From the NCBI GenBank assembly GCA_023381255.1, contig JAMCTX010000006.1, positions 1 to 34,618 of the forward strand: a stretch of DNA of 34,618 bases. Reading direction: 5' to 3'. This stretch comes from Nitrososphaerota archaeon (GTDB lineage Archaea; Thermoproteota; Nitrososphaeria; Conexivisphaerales; UBA164). The notes under the pieces are model-generated. The model searched no databases. It saw only the letters and a program-made list of their open reading frames with translations, and had not been told where the DNA came from. Shown piece after piece: positions 6,801-24,625 of the stretch. Position 1 is the stretch's first letter. Each line of letters starts with the position of its first letter. A program made the translations under genes and the position numbers.

Positions 6801-7280
6801 TTAATCCTCTGCTGCCCTTCTTTTGTTTAATACCTTTAAAAGTTCAGGATGATAGTAAATCCATTCTTTTCCCCTTTTTTCCCTTACTAGCAACCCTTTA
6901 TCTGAAAGCCTCCTCAAATATGTTGATATAATGCTAAGCTTAATGCCTTCATTGAATTTGTCTTCATATGCTTCTAAAATGGTTTTAGAAGAAAATTTTT
7001 TTGTTGAAAAGTCGTTTATAATTTTTTCGATTCTTTTGATTATTGAGTTATCTGTTACTGGTGTTTTCTTGCTTTCAGATTCAGAAATAATTTCGTACAT
7101 ATCAAGAAGCCTTATTATTTTATCTCTTGAAACACTTCCCTCCAGTTTAAAAAAGTATTTAGCTCCGCCGTTATCTTCGAACTCTAATTTAATGGCCTTG
7201 CGCTGCAAATCTTGCGGTATGTTAACTTTAAGGGCATAAAAACCATTAACAGCAAAAATTGTTAACTTGTTATCAAACAA
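6801..7280 (-). CDS. Winged-helix protein next to the replication origin
   Basis: I do not recognise a named family. The 159-residue protein has a beta-strand-rich N-terminal half (about 1-60) and a linker rich in S, E and K. A clear winged-helix DNA-binding domain occupies about 90-150 (recognition region LSIISTYLRRLSDKGLLV, wing REKRGKEWIYYHPE). The start is TTG at 7280 with a TATA-like octamer 33 nt upstream. It is the first gene of the wHTH-gins-mcm series running away from the origin. It could be a transcription factor for replication genes or a replisome-associated protein; the sequence does not decide. Confidence 0.7.
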   Translation of the reverse strand: MFDNKLTIFAVNGFYALKVNIPQDLQRKAIKLEFEDNGGAKYFFKLEGSVSRDKIIRLLDMYEIISESESKKTPVTDNSIIKRIEKIINDFSTKKFSSKTILEAYEDKFNEGIKLSIISTYLRRLSDKGLLVREKRGKEWIYYHPELLKVLNKRRAAED

Positions 7281-7305
7281 TCCACTTACTTAATTTGACA
7301 AACTA

Positions 7306-7313
7306 TTTTTAAA
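7306..7313 (-). promoter_or_regulatory. TATA-like box of the winged-helix/gins/mcm series
   Basis: TTTAAAAA on the minus strand, 33 nt before the TTG start at 7280. It lies within the origin region just outside the first ORB repeat. Confidence 0.5.
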
Positions 7314-7342
7314 TTAACATCTGTTAGCCGGGTTTGTTATCG

Positions 7343-7377
7343 CTGCAAGGGCTCCAGTGGAAATATGGGGGTTGTTT
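7343..7377 (+). repeat. Origin recognition box 1 (35-bp direct repeat)
   Basis: First of two identical 35-bp copies spaced 59 bp apart. The core has the dyad TCCAGTGGA at 7353-7361 and GGGGG at 7367-7371. Orc1/Cdc6 proteins bind such boxes with the winged helix on the dyad and the AAA+ domain at the G-run. Confidence 0.85.
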
Positions 7378-7391
7378 GGGGTATTTTACTG

Positions 7392-7721
7392 TTAATCTGC
7401 CCTGCAAGGGCTCCAGTGGAAATATGGGGGTTGTTTTGTCAAGGTTTTATAATCCGGTTTGGTAATGTTATCAATTAAAAATTTATATATAAAAGCTAAA
7501 AGGTCATCAACACACATCCGGTTATTATTCTTTGTTTTAACCTCACAGTAGGGTGGTTCATATACAACAAGATTCCTTTTTGTTCCGTGGTAGGTAACAG
7601 CTGTGAAATCTGTTTCAAGATCAAAAATTGTTAGCTGCCATCCGATATGAAAAATACCGGGTGTTGGCGCAACAAATTTTTCCTGGTCTTTTATACATCC
7701 AAAATTAAGGTTGTTCCACAA
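7392..7721 (-). CDS. Doubtful 109-residue reading frame inside the origin
   Basis: A TTG-initiated frame whose last 14 codons run through ORB 2, which argues against a functional protein. Residues 20-85 look protein-like (mixed charged and hydrophobic, several tryptophans and tyrosines), so it could be a decayed gene. I know no family match. The stretch 7440-7720 has no other explanation that I can see. Confidence 0.2.
   Translation of the reverse strand: MWNNLNFGCIKDQEKFVAPTPGIFHIGWQLTIFDLETDFTAVTYHGTKRNLVVYEPPYCEVKTKNNNRMCVDDLLAFIYKFLIDNITKPDYKTLTKQPPYFHWSPCRAD
7402..7436 (+). repeat. Origin recognition box 2 (35-bp direct repeat)
   Basis: Identical to 7343-7377, with dyad TCCAGTGGA at 7412-7420 and GGGGG at 7426-7430. 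The perfect match over 35 bp in non-coding DNA implies strong constraint or recent copying. Confidence 0.85.
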
Positions 7722-7765
7722 ATTTGATATTTTTCATTATGGTTGAGGGAGTTTTTTACAATTAG

Positions 7766-7789
7766 ATGTTTGGAAGCGCGGGGGTTGTT
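7766..7789 (+). repeat. Degenerate origin recognition box
   Basis: TGGAAGCGCGGGGGTTGTT at 7771-7789 matches the right part of the perfect boxes (TGGAA, four bases, GGGGGTTGTT). The left half of the dyad has decayed. Confidence 0.5.
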
Positions 7790-7850
7790 GTAATATCTAA
7801 ACCTATAAGATAATAAAAAATTATCATCCCGTTGTGGTTTGAAATATCTC

Positions 7851-7874
7851 CCTACCCGTTTTTTTCCACTGCAT
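7851..7874 (-). repeat. Degenerate inverted origin recognition box
   Basis: The minus strand reads GCAGTGGAAAAAAACGGG, resembling CCAGTGGAAA plus a short G-run. Its inverted orientation relative to the other boxes would place it on the far side of a bipartite origin, just before the AT-rich block. Confidence 0.4.
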
Positions 7875-7930
7875 CCATTGAACGGGTCTATACCAAAATT
7901 TCATGTCTATTTTTATTGACTTTTGGTTTT

Positions 7931-7958
7931 ATATTTTATATTTTATATTTTATATTTT
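7931..7958 (+). repeat. AT-rich tandem repeat, probable DNA unwinding element
   Basis: Four perfect tandem copies of ATATTTT lie between the degenerate boxes and the box at the start of orc1. Flanking bases are also almost pure A+T (7921-7980). Such a block beside ORB sites is the expected place of first strand opening. Confidence 0.65.
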
Positions 7959-7960
7959 CT

Positions 7961-7968
7961 TTTATATA
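7961..7968 (+). promoter_or_regulatory. TATA-like box of orc1/cdc6
   Basis: TTTATATA just after the AT-rich repeats. With the 29-33 nt spacing seen for other genes here, transcription would begin near 7990-7994, just downstream of the ATG at 7988 and upstream of those at 8012 and 8018. Confidence 0.5.
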
Positions 7969-7990
7969 ATTAGGTTTAATAATAAATATG

Positions 7991-8012
7991 TTCCAGTGGA
8001 AATCTGGGGGTA
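7991..8012 (+). repeat. Origin recognition box 3 at the start of orc1
   Basis: TCCAGTGGA at 7992-8000 followed by GGGGG at 8006-8010, one base different in spacer sequence from boxes 1 and 2. It sits in the leader or first codons of orc1/cdc6, so initiator binding could repress its own gene. Confidence 0.75.
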
Positions 8013-8017
8013 TGGGG

Positions 8018-9226
8018 ATGGATAGTTCTGATATAGTAGATAAAGTATTTGAAAAGGCCACTAAAGGAGATCGTTTGATCACCAACCCGGACGTATTAAA
8101 ACTTGATTACATACCTAATAAAATACTTTATCGTGACATTCAGACGGAGAAAATAGCTTCAGTTTTATCACCAGTTCTAAATCTGGTTAAACCATCAAAT
8201 TTGTTTATTTATGGTAAAACCGGTACAGGAAAAACAATGGTCACAAAGTTTGTCATGAATGCATTGGAAAACAAGAAGAAAGACAACAAAACGGTTATCA
8301 GTTATATAAATTCTAGAACCAGCGGCACCATATATAGAGTCCTGTCAGACATTGCATATACATTAAAAATTAAGGTTCCATTTACAGGATTGTCAGTTAG
8401 TGAAGTACAAAAAAGAATTTTTGAATATTTAAAAGAAAACGAGATAAAACTTCTATTAGTATTAGATGAAGTTGATTTCTTAGTAAATTCACCACTAAAA
8501 AAAGATGGTGGGAATGACTTATTATATGAATTAACAAGATATGGAAGTTACGCCAACTCAAATAGCTTCATATCTATAATAGGAATTTCTAATGATATAA
8601 AATTTAAGGATTACCTAGAATCCAGGGTTTACAGCAGTTTACATGACGAAGAAGTTTTTTTTCCGCCATACAGTGTTGAAGAATTAAAAGACATACTTAA
8701 AGAAAGAGCCAGCATTGCATTTATTGGCAATGCGATAACAGAAGACGTTATTAATTTAATAGCCGCCCGTTCAGGAGGAGAACACGGCGATGCCAGAAGG
8801 GCGGTAGATTTGCTAAGAGTTGCCGCAGAACTGGCAGAAAGAGAAAACGCTAAAAAAATAGAAATAAGACATGTTCAAGAAGCTTCAAAAAACATGGAAC
8901 AGGATAAGGTTAGCGAAGCAATTTCTTCCTTACCAATTCAGGAAAAGCTTGTTATGTTAACAATAGCATCTTTAAAAGAGGCCGAAAATACCGGCCACAT
9001 TTATATCAAGTATTTAAATACCTGTGAAAATTTAGGAATACAGCCATTAACACAGCGAAGGGTGAGCGCAATCATAAACGAATTGGATATGCTTGGCTTA
9101 ATAAGTGCACCAGTTATTAATAGGGGCAGATATGGCAGGTCAAAAAAAATTAGCTTGGCTTTGGATAGAAATACAACCGTCAAAATAATTAAAGAAGACG
9201 AAGTGCTAAAAAACCTGAGCATATAA
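8018..9226 (+). CDS. orc1: Origin-binding initiator Orc1/Cdc6
   Basis: AAA+ initiator that binds ORB repeats and recruits MCM. Counting from 8018, Walker A is GKTGTGKT at 66-73, Walker B LVLDEVD at 147-153, and sensor 2 GDARRAVDLL at about 257-266. A C-terminal winged-helix DNA-binding domain fills about 290-402. An in-frame ATG exists at 7988, but that version would encode the ORB box as its first codons and would start at or before the predicted transcription start. The ATG at 8018 (or 8012) gives the usual N-terminus (MDSSDIVDKVF), so I chose it. The gene abuts the origin and diverges from gins-mcm. ORB 3 over its leader suggests autoregulation. Confidence 0.95.
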   Translation: MDSSDIVDKVFEKATKGDRLITNPDVLKLDYIPNKILYRDIQTEKIASVLSPVLNLVKPSNLFIYGKTGTGKTMVTKFVMNALENKKKDNKTVISYINSRTSGTIYRVLSDIAYTLKIKVPFTGLSVSEVQKRIFEYLKENEIKLLLVLDEVDFLVNSPLKKDGGNDLLYELTRYGSYANSNSFISIIGISNDIKFKDYLESRVYSSLHDEEVFFPPYSVEELKDILKERASIAFIGNAITEDVINLIAARSGGEHGDARRAVDLLRVAAELAERENAKKIEIRHVQEASKNMEQDKVSEAISSLPIQEKLVMLTIASLKEAENTGHIYIKYLNTCENLGIQPLTQRRVSAIINELDMLGLISAPVINRGRYGRSKKISLALDRNTTVKIIKEDEVLKNLSI

Positions 9227-16671: not shown

Positions 16672-18225
16672 GTGTTGATATCACCAGGAAGCACCGATGA
16701 TCTTTTTATACTCTTGATATTTATAATTTTGGTGATATCATTATCTTATCTTTTAGCTTTGTTCGAAAATCATGTATTTTTTGGCGGTCAAAATTTAGTT
16801 AATAAGATTTTAATGGCACTGAAGATGTATAATGAAGAAATGGGTTGGGGTACCTATTTTATATCAATGATGTTGGTTAATCTCTTAGTTGTGATTATTG
16901 CTGGTATTATACTTGTTACATCACTTTATCCCGGATATCACATCACATCATCTCTGTTATTTAATACACTTGCATCTTTTATTACGAATACAGACTTGGA
17001 ACATTTTGCAAGCGAATTTACAATTACATCTTATGGAGAGGCCTTTGCGCTACAATTCCTTGAGTGGATCGCGCCTGCTACTGGATTATCCGCAGCAATA
17101 GCATTTATTAGATCAATAGCTTATGGCAAAATCGGTAATTTTTTCAAAGATATATTATCATCACTCTTACTTGTTTTCTTACCTATATCGTTAATTTTAT
17201 CATTAGCATATATAGCCCTAGGAGTGCCCCAAACATTCTTATCAATAATAAAGGTTCCAGAACCCCTAGGTCCCATAAGTTCACTGCTGCCCATTATGAC
17301 GTTGGGTAATAACGGGGGCTCTTATTATGCCCTTGGTTCAGCCATAGCTTTGCAAAACCCGAATATTTTAACAAACTTAGTTGAATCTGTATCCATGCTA
17401 GTGTTTCCGTTTTCGCTTTTCTGGCTTTTTGGATTTAATCTAAAAAATAAAAAAGAGGGTTTATATTTGCTTACTGCTTCGTTATTAATCTTTTTGATAG
17501 CGTTTGTCGTTACGATGTACGAGCCGCTGGCGCTTTTTCCATTTAGGATAGGCCAGTTTAACACTAAAATTCTTACAACGGCATCTATTTTTTCAAATAC
17601 GGGATTATTGTCAGCACCGCTAAATGGGCTAAGTCATCACGCCTTGGCAATATATATTGTGGGAATGGCAGTTGCAATGGCCCCCGGCTCAATTGGCACT
17701 GGTTTTATCAGCATTGAAGTTTATGCAATTTTGGCTATATTTTTCATAAGTTTAATGTCCGGGCGCATGCCTGAATATTTAAATTTTAAACTAAATGTAA
17801 AAGAAATACGGCTCTCTTCTTTTGCATTCCTTTTGCATCCGATTCTAATTTATGCCGGTATTTTATTTGCCATTTTTATTTTACCAAAAAATCTATTCCC
17901 ATACCTAGGTACAGGCTTTACTCAGGCTTTGTGGGAAATAGTAAGCGCCGCCCAAAACAACGGCTCAGATTTTTATGGGGTTCTGGGAAATACGGCCGCA
18001 TTAAATTACTTAACCGGGGTCATAATGATTTTGGGAAGATATTTGTTTTTAATGATTGGGTTATTAATAGCAAACGAATTTATAAATAAGAAAAAAAATC
18101 AATCAACAACAAAAATAAGGACGGATACACCCTCATTTAGCATTACACTGGTAACATTTATATTTCTTTTAGTTATCATAACTCTATTGCCATTACTGGT
18201 TCTTGGTCCAATGGCAAGTTGGTGA
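16672..18225 (+). CDS. kdpA: Potassium-transporting ATPase subunit KdpA (divergent)
   Basis: K+-translocating subunit of the Kdp pump, 517 residues, about ten membrane segments. The four pore loops of the family can be matched: FITNTDLEHF (near 104), TLGNNGGSYYALGSA (near 212), FSNTGLLSAPL (near 309) and NNGSDFYGV (near 431). They correspond to NTNWQ, GTNGGGFF, the TTS/CGAV loop and NNGSAF of bacterial KdpA. Loops one and three depart most from the bacterial form, so ion affinity may differ. The start is GTG at 16672, four bases after the regulator; a TTG one codon on is possible. kdpB follows after six bases. Large inserts and extra domains are absent. Confidence 0.9.
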   Translation: MLISPGSTDDLFILLIFIILVISLSYLLALFENHVFFGGQNLVNKILMALKMYNEEMGWGTYFISMMLVNLLVVIIAGIILVTSLYPGYHITSSLLFNTLASFITNTDLEHFASEFTITSYGEAFALQFLEWIAPATGLSAAIAFIRSIAYGKIGNFFKDILSSLLLVFLPISLILSLAYIALGVPQTFLSIIKVPEPLGPISSLLPIMTLGNNGGSYYALGSAIALQNPNILTNLVESVSMLVFPFSLFWLFGFNLKNKKEGLYLLTASLLIFLIAFVVTMYEPLALFPFRIGQFNTKILTTASIFSNTGLLSAPLNGLSHHALAIYIVGMAVAMAPGSIGTGFISIEVYAILAIFFISLMSGRMPEYLNFKLNVKEIRLSSFAFLLHPILIYAGILFAIFILPKNLFPYLGTGFTQALWEIVSAAQNNGSDFYGVLGNTAALNYLTGVIMILGRYLFLMIGLLIANEFINKKKNQSTTKIRTDTPSFSITLVTFIFLLVIITLLPLLVLGPMASW

Positions 18226-18231
18226 TGACAG

Positions 18232-20289
18232 ATGGAACTTAAAACGGTCGCATCATTGCTTGGGGAATCATTTAAAAGGCTATCCCCGACTTATTTGTAT
18301 TTAAATCCAGTGCTGTTTATGACGGAAATTTCTTTCATTATTGTTGCTCTTTATATGCTGGTTACAAAATCTTTTTCCTTATTTTACATTTCGGTTCTTT
18401 CGCTTATTTTTATTACGGTTTGGTTTGGAACTTTTGCGGATTCCTTAGCCGAGTTTCAGGCAAAAGCTACCGCAAAATTCCTAATTTCTGTAACGCAGGC
18501 TAACCTAGCCAGGAAAATTATGAACGACAATTCCTCAGAAATACTGATTAAACCAGAAGAGCTAGTAAAGGGTGATATAATACTAGTAAATAGCGGAGAA
18601 ATTGTTCCCGTAGATGGCGTAATCATTGATGGGGCTGCTGCAATAGATGAATCTCTGGTTTCTGGCGAGTCAATACCTGTAATAAAATCCGTAAACGACG
18701 AAGTTGTGGCCGGCTCAAGGGTTTCTAGTGACTGGTTAAAGATAAAGGTTGTAAAACCGGTTGGTGAATCATATGTATCAAAAATAGCCGATATGATCGA
18801 GAAAACAAAAAGGCCGAAGTCCCAAAGCGAACAAGAGCTCAATCTAATATTATATGTCCTAACCGCCATCTTTACGGTGGTAATCATAGCACTTTTTGTA
18901 ATTGTTGGTGCACTGGGCTATAGGCCAAACCCCGCAATATTGTTGGCATTCTATGTTTGTTTGTTGCCAACGACAATCGGGGCATTACATGAGGCCATAG
19001 GCATATCTGGAATTGCGCGCATGTGGAAAATCAGAGTAATATCAAAATCTGGTAGGGCCATTGAATCAGCAGGAGACGTAGACGACGTTTTACTAGATAA
19101 AACCGGCACAATAACCATAGGCAGGAGAGAACCTATTAGTATTTTACCATTTAACGGCATTCAGGTAGAAGATGTAGCGCGAGCGGCATTCATCGCATCT
19201 TTAAATGATGATACACAAGAAGGCAAGTCTATTATTAGGTTTTTGCAGAACTCGGGATACACTCCAGACAATTTGGATTCAATTATTACATCCACCTATG
19301 AAGAATTTTCAGCAAAAACAAGGAAAAGCGGCACTTATTACAAACCGTCCACTTGGGGTGGCAAAGAGATGCGCGGGAAATTGCACATCATCAGAAAAAG
19401 CGATCTAAACGGCATATATCTAAATGACGAAATACCCGTATTCAAAGGTGCGCCCGACGTCATGAAAAAGATCTTTAGCGTTCCTTCTGACTTTGATAAA
19501 ACAGTAGAAGATATTGCCAAAAAAGGGAACTCCCCGTTGATAATTTCATATGGAGATAAGATTATAGGGGTAATTGAATTAAAGGACATAATAAAACCGG
19601 GCGTCAAAACCCAGATTGAGTCTCTAAAGAAAATGGCTATAGAGCCAATCATGGTAACGGGCGATCATCCACTAACTGCAAGAAATATAGCAAACGAAGT
19701 AAGTATAAATGAAGTGATAGCTCAGGCCAAACCTGAAGACAAGTACAAGAAGGTCCAAGCAGAACAGGACAAAGGTAAAACTATAGCAATGGTAGGAGAT
19801 GGCACCAATGATGCACCGGCCCTCGCTAGGGCAAACGTTGGGTTGGCCATGTATCAAGGAACAGAAGTTGCAAAAGAAGCCGCAAATATGGTAGATCTTG
19901 AATCCGACCCTTCTAAAATTATAGATGTAATCATGATAGGGAAGCAAATTCTTATAACCCGCGGTTCAATAGCGACATTCAGTATAGCTAACGATTTAGC
20001 GAAGTATTTTGTCATACTTCCAGCCATGCTTTCCACAATTTCCGCGTTATCCTACCTTAATATTTTAAAATTGCCCCCTCATGTTTCTGTGATTTCCGCC
20101 CTGATTTATAATGCAATAATAATACCAGCTCTAATACCCTTGGCCATTAAAGGCATAGGGTTCAAGCCAGACAATCCAAATAAAACATTCCTAAAAAATA
20201 TGCTTATTTATGGATTGGGGGGAATGGTTTTACCATTTATAGCTATAAAACTAATAGGCATAATTCTAATGTTACATATAGTTTTGTGA
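18232..20289 (+). CDS. kdpB: Potassium-transporting P-type ATPase subunit KdpB
   Basis: Catalytic P-type ATPase subunit of the Kdp pump, 685 residues, normal length. The actuator-domain loop reads SGES at 144-147 (usually TGES; the last Ser corresponds to the inhibitory phosphorylation site known in E. coli). The phosphorylated aspartate is D289 in DKTGTIT. MVTGDHPLTARNIA is near 475, and GDGTNDAP spans 522-529. Seven or so membrane segments flank these domains. No heavy-metal-binding domain is present, and DKTGTIT plus pairing with KdpA make the identity firm. The stabilising subunit gene kdpC would normally follow directly; the next 132 bp are non-coding and the next frame is not KdpC. Confidence 0.95.
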   Translation: MELKTVASLLGESFKRLSPTYLYLNPVLFMTEISFIIVALYMLVTKSFSLFYISVLSLIFITVWFGTFADSLAEFQAKATAKFLISVTQANLARKIMNDNSSEILIKPEELVKGDIILVNSGEIVPVDGVIIDGAAAIDESLVSGESIPVIKSVNDEVVAGSRVSSDWLKIKVVKPVGESYVSKIADMIEKTKRPKSQSEQELNLILYVLTAIFTVVIIALFVIVGALGYRPNPAILLAFYVCLLPTTIGALHEAIGISGIARMWKIRVISKSGRAIESAGDVDDVLLDKTGTITIGRREPISILPFNGIQVEDVARAAFIASLNDDTQEGKSIIRFLQNSGYTPDNLDSIITSTYEEFSAKTRKSGTYYKPSTWGGKEMRGKLHIIRKSDLNGIYLNDEIPVFKGAPDVMKKIFSVPSDFDKTVEDIAKKGNSPLIISYGDKIIGVIELKDIIKPGVKTQIESLKKMAIEPIMVTGDHPLTARNIANEVSINEVIAQAKPEDKYKKVQAEQDKGKTIAMVGDGTNDAPALARANVGLAMYQGTEVAKEAANMVDLESDPSKIIDVIMIGKQILITRGSIATFSIANDLAKYFVILPAMLSTISALSYLNILKLPPHVSVISALIYNAIIIPALIPLAIKGIGFKPDNPNKTFLKNMLIYGLGGMVLPFIAIKLIGIILMLHIVL

Positions 20290-24286: not shown

Positions 24287-24625
24287 TCTGCATACTATAT
24301 TTTGCCGCCGTTATAAAAGCTTAGCTTTTACACAGGGCAGCAAGAATGCTACGCTTTATCATAAAATGGCAAATCTTATTTCTGAGTGGCATAAAAGATC
24401 AAGAGTAATTTGTTGCGGGGACAGCCGGCATTTTTCATGGGGTCTGACGGTTAAAAATTTTTTATAGCAAAACCCATTTAACACTTGCTTCGCACCACAG
24501 AATGAAACAAAATCTTGCTATATATGAAGCAACCCCCGCGAGGTTAAAGTTGTTCGCATAATACAAAAAACAGTTGGCCCTTTTGGGTCGCAACCCATAA
24601 AAAAGGATCAAGTTATTAATATAAT
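24287..24625. other. Divergent intergenic region without a recognisable gene
   Basis: This 339-bp gap holds the DUF655 promoter on the left and, near 24595-24605 (CATAAAAAAGG), a likely promoter of the MFS gene on the right. A small hairpin TGGGT-CGCA-ACCCA lies at 24584-24597. The plus-strand frame through 24362-24467 is open, but I find no family resemblance. I see no tRNA or repeat here. Confidence 0.5.
24311..24318 (-). promoter_or_regulatory. TATA-like box of DUF655-thiL
   Basis: TTTTATAA on the minus strand, 32 nt before the TTG start at 24286. Confidence 0.5.

Follow-up and report, generated by a model that had tools for sequence, protein, structure and literature searches.

ORBs and an AT-rich element beside orc1

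Does the gap upstream of an orc1/cdc6 gene in a draft genome of the archaeal class Nitrososphaeria hold a chromosomal replication origin and, if so, of what design? The DNA analyzed here (the window, 34,618 nucleotides) is the entire contig C6 of a draft of 1,280,612 bp in 25 contigs, estimated to be 85% complete. Its Orc1 is 89% identical to the Orc1 of a draft labeled "Nitrososphaeria archaeon," the closest named relative. Searches for RNA families, tRNAs, and terminators returned none. At 16672-20289, the window carries adjacent KdpA-like and KdpB-like genes, assigned to potassium uptake from their translations alone.

Origin recognition boxes (ORBs) were scored with a weight matrix (PWM) built from the ORBs in 30 class genomes, with orc1 identity down to ~40%, and scanned upstream of each orc1; at the threshold used, the window yields exactly four hits. 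The features of the gap are as follows:

7343-7377, plus strand: ORB 1, first box of the distal tandem pair (PWM score 36.7), a 35-mer identical to ORB 2 and conserved in class relatives
7402-7436, plus strand: ORB 2, partner of ORB 1 in the pair at a start-to-start spacing of 59 bp, conserved in class relatives
7489-7848: lineage-specific insert of 360 bp, containing a decayed coding repeat and a weak box at 7771-7789
about 7850-7885, minus strand: inverted ORB at the left edge of the AT-rich element (PWM score 25.7), with a counterpart in 28 of 30 genomes
7886-7981: AT-rich candidate duplex-unwinding element, containing 4.6 copies of TTTTATA at 7927-7958
7982-8016, plus strand: ORB bounding the AT-rich element on the right, at the start of orc1 (PWM score 28.8)
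8018-9226, plus strand: orc1/cdc6 initiator gene, with AAA+ and winged-helix domains (Pfam Cdc6_C, 1.3e-25; Cdc6_lid, 4e-22)

A first-pass annotation had described five boxes here, three strong and two weak. A repeat search recovered the two identical 35-bp repeats and the third box at orc1, and the tandem 7-mers noted at the time proved to be the TTTTATA array; four of the five boxes stand. Since the weak box at 7771-7789 lies inside the lineage-specific insert, scores below the PWM threshold, and is not conserved in relatives, we rejected it as an ORB, and it is probably a chance match. The inverted box, also regarded as degenerate, is real and a conserved core box; its conservation in class relatives makes it a regular member of the set.

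The 19-bp ORB core, TCCAGTGGAAATNTGGGGG, has three exact matches in the window, where 0.03 would be expected even when up to three mismatches are allowed. Further copies of the repeat elsewhere in the draft had been seen as a possible objection to an origin, and the search found just one other match, at C3:29246 and with three mismatches, so that within the 85% complete draft the ORB cluster is confined to this locus. The dyad plus G-string layout, which had been taken for the ORB design, is indeed close to the common archaeal ORB motif of DoriC/Ori-Finder 2, TCCA[CG]T[TG]GAAA[TC][GA]AAGGGGT (PMC4164010): the window boxes, TCCAGTGGAAATATGGGGGT, match this consensus in both dyad and G-string, but depart from it at a few spacer and G-string positions, and class relatives share a TGCAANGGC-like left flank. 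The AT-rich element is flanked by ORBs of opposite polarity (minus at 7850, plus at 7982), and positions 7927-7990 hold the most AT-rich 60-mer of the window, at 95% AT. A shorter form of the TTTTATA array is present in the genus-mate G001.

The solved chains closest to Orc1 are 2qby_A (Sulfolobus Cdc6-1, 3.7e-102) and 2v1u_A (Aeropyrum ORC1, 7.5e-91), both ORB-binding initiators; the window Orc1 is of the ORB-binding type. Its homology begins near Met 8018, not 7988, and the fourth ORB therefore lies just upstream of, or over, the orc1 start, a position that would suit autoregulation of orc1. A second, divergent Orc1/Cdc6 gene occurs at C8:20997-22049 (locus L046), around which the PWM scan found no convincing ORB; it possibly marks a second origin of another type, or encodes a regulator.

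Conservation of the box plan and strand asymmetry

The PWM scan showed that box order (+ + - +), spacing, and polarity are kept in most of the 30 class genomes, the common plan being two ORBs directed toward orc1, followed by an inverted one, then AT-rich DNA, and a last ORB at the start of orc1. Where the pair was found in relatives, its start-to-start spacing was 59-68 bp (59-62 bp in most). Family f3 (G012, G015, G017, and G019) has a spacing of 61-68 bp, and its pair is inverted, as a single block with the neighboring winged-helix gene. The scan detected one distal ORB instead of a pair in G011, G014, and G016, and it detected no inverted box in 2 of the 30 genomes (G003 and G008). Nearly all relatives that have ORBs at orc1 carry a box between -14 and -75 relative to the orc1 Met. 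Beyond the class, a + - + set occupied the gap between orc1 and the winged-helix gene at 17/17 loci scanned in other classes of the phylum, and Sulfolobaceae-type genomes carry - + (+) boxes, whose polarity on the two sides of the AT-rich element is the same.

Because of the 25 contigs of the draft itself, strand asymmetry was read at the orthologous site in two complete relatives, G036 and G012, half of each chromosome being sampled in 20-kb pieces. In G036 (1,607,695 bp, orc1 at 1,534,108), gene orientation reached an extremum at 1,530,000 and the opposite one at 730,000, and the strand-corrected third-position skew had its extrema at 1,530,000 and 730,000, coinciding with the orientation splits. 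In the sampled half of this genome, PWM hits scoring at least 20 were confined to its origin. In G012, where orc1 lies at the start of the record, gene orientation turns over at 20 kb and again at 820 kb; its strand-corrected skew was weaker, with an extremum ~64 kb off that was not significant by permutation. Raw GC skew was uninformative in both relatives (permutation p 0.49-0.59), and skew within the window tracks gene direction and is no proof of an origin by itself. The turning points in G036 and G012 are those of an origin and an opposite terminus.

Together, the uniqueness of the boxes in the genome, their class-wide conservation, an Orc1 of the ORB-binding type, and the turning points in G036 and G012 support the earlier reading of the gap as an archaeal ORB-type origin. 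We conclude that 7209-8017 is very probably the orc1-linked chromosomal replication origin of this class Nitrososphaeria archaeon and, going by its sequence features, an ORB origin of canonical type from a new lineage.

A predicted winged-helix gene and a second repeat motif

The gap had been placed between divergent helicase/GINS genes and the initiator gene. The initiator side of that description is correct; the immediate divergent neighbor is a gene for a predicted winged-helix protein, with GINS and MCM following it only in this genus. An in-frame extension of the winged-helix gene to 7280 is broken by stops in relatives. The MCM gene of G001 (L057 8466-12080, C185) contains an in-frame, intein-like insertion after EVMEQQ, giving 1204 aa in total, which the window MCM does not have.

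The 135-aa protein passes no Pfam or NCBIfam cut-off, its best family matches being Penicillinase_R at 21.7 bits (cut-off 22.6) and CopY_TcrY at 27.1 bits (cut-off 121.95). Its winged-helix domain is predicted confidently (~90 pLDDT) and the remainder less so (mean 74), while the fold matches are generic (ArsR, MecI, and PadR-like), none with E below 1e-3. With no family model above its curated cut-off and a related fold only, we did not assign the protein to the BlaI/MecI, ArsR, or PadR repressors. A profile of the family (A2, 25 members), run on 151 phylum genomes, detected the gene in 101, nearly always in single copy. Of the 46 class genomes in which both it and orc1 were located (circular ends joined), 45 have the two side by side, and in the sole exception both genes lie at contig edges. 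In 20 of the 42 genomes outside the class that carry it, it and orc1 diverge from a gap of less than ~1 kb. At L219, L221, L226, and L230, where the ORBs adjoin the winged-helix gene and not orc1, a conserved gene of ~99 aa, helix-turn-helix-like (...YGSIYRTSKITKISRPQLYRYL...), lies across the gap, at a distance of ~0.9-1.5 kb upstream from the winged-helix gene.

The same side of the origin carries short repeats:

6801-7208, minus strand: gene for the predicted winged-helix protein of 135 aa, origin-linked across the phylum
7220-7225: TGTTAA repeat
7246-7251: TTAACA repeat
7259-7276: TTGTTAACTTGTTATCAA dyad with TGTTAA inside, the sole zero-mismatch match of the pattern in the genome
7314-7319: TTAACA repeat
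7390-7395: TGTTAA repeat between ORB 1 and ORB 2

The dyad is well kept, with 15-16 of its 16 positions matched in 8/8 family members tested. Taken alone, the window cluster is weak (five repeats in 450 bp vs. four elsewhere in the window), and the weight of the motif is comparative. Across the 30 class genomes, TTAACA/TGTTAA was seen 221 times in the gap between the winged-helix gene and orc1, against 29.5 expected, and it is the most enriched 6-mer there, in 27 of the 30. For 16 genomes of other classes, the top gap 6-mer was TTCACA/TGTGAA, with 81 occurrences against ~9 expected. The combined motif, TTMACA, is densest next to the winged-helix gene, at 30 per kb, and thins to 3.1 per kb in the AT-rich core; outside that core it runs at 14-30 per kb. 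No TTAACA cluster in the half of G036 that was sampled is denser than the one at the origin, which ties for first place. A second cluster in that genome, at 419 kb (L140 19380-19700), consists of dense TTGTTATGCCTAACA-type repeats of a different form beside a putative tRNA gene and is possibly the attachment or origin region of an integrated element.

The best reading of these patterns is that the winged-helix protein would bind the TTMACA repeats as a second origin factor. Extended to the phylum, this gives a two-protein origin system, with Orc1 on the ORBs and the winged-helix protein on TTAACA/TTCACA, the latter gene and motif having been lost together in Sulfolobaceae-type lineages, a proposal that we advance tentatively and regard as falling only a little short of probable. 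Instead, the repeats might be bound by another protein, such as a chromatin protein or the second Orc1, the winged-helix protein being an ordinary regulator linked to them by chance. Such a binder is quite possible, though somewhat doubtful: the winged-helix fold is generic, DNA binding by this protein is itself a prediction, and Sulfolobus UBP is a precedent for a chromatin-type protein with an origin motif of its own (PMC12141716), but the motif follows the gene. Where the winged-helix gene is absent, TTMACA stood at chance in 7/7 ORB origins (8 seen, 8.1 expected), although these are mostly of one family, in which common descent could explain the absence; where the gene lies elsewhere in the genome, TTCACA was seen 20 times against 2.2 expected.

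Genomes in which the two genes have parted also bear on whether the repeats are simply the promoter or operator of the winged-helix gene, unrelated to replication, as their peak density between that gene and the first ORB might suggest. In G173, G178, G138, G081, G118, and G074, the ORBs are at orc1 together with 3-7 TTCACA, and the winged-helix gene has neither ORB nor motif upstream in the first five, and no ORB but one TTCACA and one TTAACA upstream in G074. Conversely, in eleven further separated genomes (e.g., G119, G127, and G147), the ORBs adjoin the winged-helix gene, and orc1 had no ORB cluster in those of the eleven that were examined. Since the motif is kept with the ORBs in genomes with separated genes, it belongs to the origin and not to the winged-helix promoter. 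We therefore ruled against TTMACA as the operator of the winged-helix gene and consider that explanation unlikely.

Possible operator function and the lineage-specific insert

Could the ORBs themselves be operators, through which Orc1 controls only orc1 and the winged-helix gene, while replication begins at another site or through recombination? This account would fit the overlap of one box with the start of orc1 and the position of the pair, upstream of the winged-helix gene, and one report describes some archaea growing without origins, via recombination (PMC11005403). Against it stand the turning points seen across the chromosomes of G036 and G012, which fall at or close to the orthologous site, the conservation of the AT-rich element between opposed ORBs, and the persistence of the ORB cluster even where either gene has moved off, and we consider it very unlikely.

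The window departs from most relatives in the distance between pair and core. Alignment with G001 covers 7309-7488 and 7849-8030, at 81-82%, and not the 360 bp between them; at this point G001 carries a different sequence, longer and unrelated. Because this insert splits the pair from the core, the pair is 442 bp from the inverted box, compared to ~65-110 bp in most relatives, ~365 bp in G010, and ~1.56 kb in G001. The coding repeat inside the insert has a second decayed copy at 24367-24549 of the window, with stop codons and 44% amino-acid identity. An open reading frame at 7392-7721 (109 aa) was rejected as a gene: it has no Pfam match, crosses ORB 2, and fuses the decayed repeat to origin DNA, and the homologous frame in G001 has two stops. 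That the insert, with its decayed, repeated sequence and the distance it imposes, broke the origin in this species and left a remnant is highly improbable, given that orc1 is intact, as are the AT-rich element and each of the four boxes, and that G001 has the same boxes with an even longer insert. The retention of the boxes in G001 suggests that the distance between pair and core is tolerated.

Discussion

From the identity, conservation, and position of the boxes, we infer a sequence of binding, melting, and initiation at this very probable origin. Orc1 would bind the four ORBs, of which the inverted box and the box at the orc1 start, pointing outward on either side of the AT-rich element, would form the core for melting and helicase loading. 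The tandem pair at 7343-7436 would serve as an auxiliary Orc1 cluster, displaced from the core by the insert, and the ORB at the orc1 start may also allow Orc1 to repress its own gene. Less certainly, the winged-helix protein would act as a second origin factor, with its sites in the TTAACA repeats that lie between its gene and the core; it would load, position, or restrain Orc1/MCM or, alternatively, couple orc1 expression to initiation.

The core resembles Sulfolobus oriC1, with an AT-rich element between ORBs of opposite polarity and orc1 alongside; the -/+ core polarity recurs in Sulfolobaceae-type genomes, and the nearest solved Orc1, 2qby_A, is Cdc6-1. Unlike oriC1, the window has a distal tandem pair before the core and its last box over the orc1 start, and Sulfolobaceae-type genomes differ in having neither TTMACA repeats nor the winged-helix gene. 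In the ORB3-DUE-ORB2 core of S. islandicus, each ORB is individually required (PMC12141716). Nitrosopumilus maritimus has a single mapped origin (reviewed in PMC4010727). Nitrosopumilus-like genomes, of the same class, share the four-box plan and the TTAACA repeats; in contrast to them, the window has an insert between pair and core.

Sulfolobus WhiP is a winged-helix protein encoded beside oriC3 and thus offers a case of a winged-helix gene adjoining an origin, although the window has Orc1 and ORBs as well. In the profile search, A2 had no match in the sampled Sulfolobaceae-type genomes. A further parallel is Sulfolobus UBP, a strand-swapped saddle whose ucm motif lies inside the AT-rich element (PMC12141716): as predicted here, a second sequence-specific protein and its motif act at the origin besides Orc1 and ORBs. 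However, the window protein is a predicted winged-helix protein and TTMACA avoids the AT-rich core, and we rejected its identification as UBP on both points. Our search, which covered the open-access literature, found no report of this winged-helix gene or of TTMACA repeats at origins, nor, besides UBP and WhiP, of a second origin-binding factor in these archaea. The winged-helix gene and TTMACA repeats may be a new part.

With the origin described here, the standard ORB design reaches a lineage that has been little studied, and the comparisons show that this design, including box polarity, is common deep within one archaeal phylum. That the winged-helix gene and the motif track each other across ~100 genomes was unexpected. 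With a named gene and a named motif, simple binding and deletion tests come within reach in culturable ammonia oxidizers.
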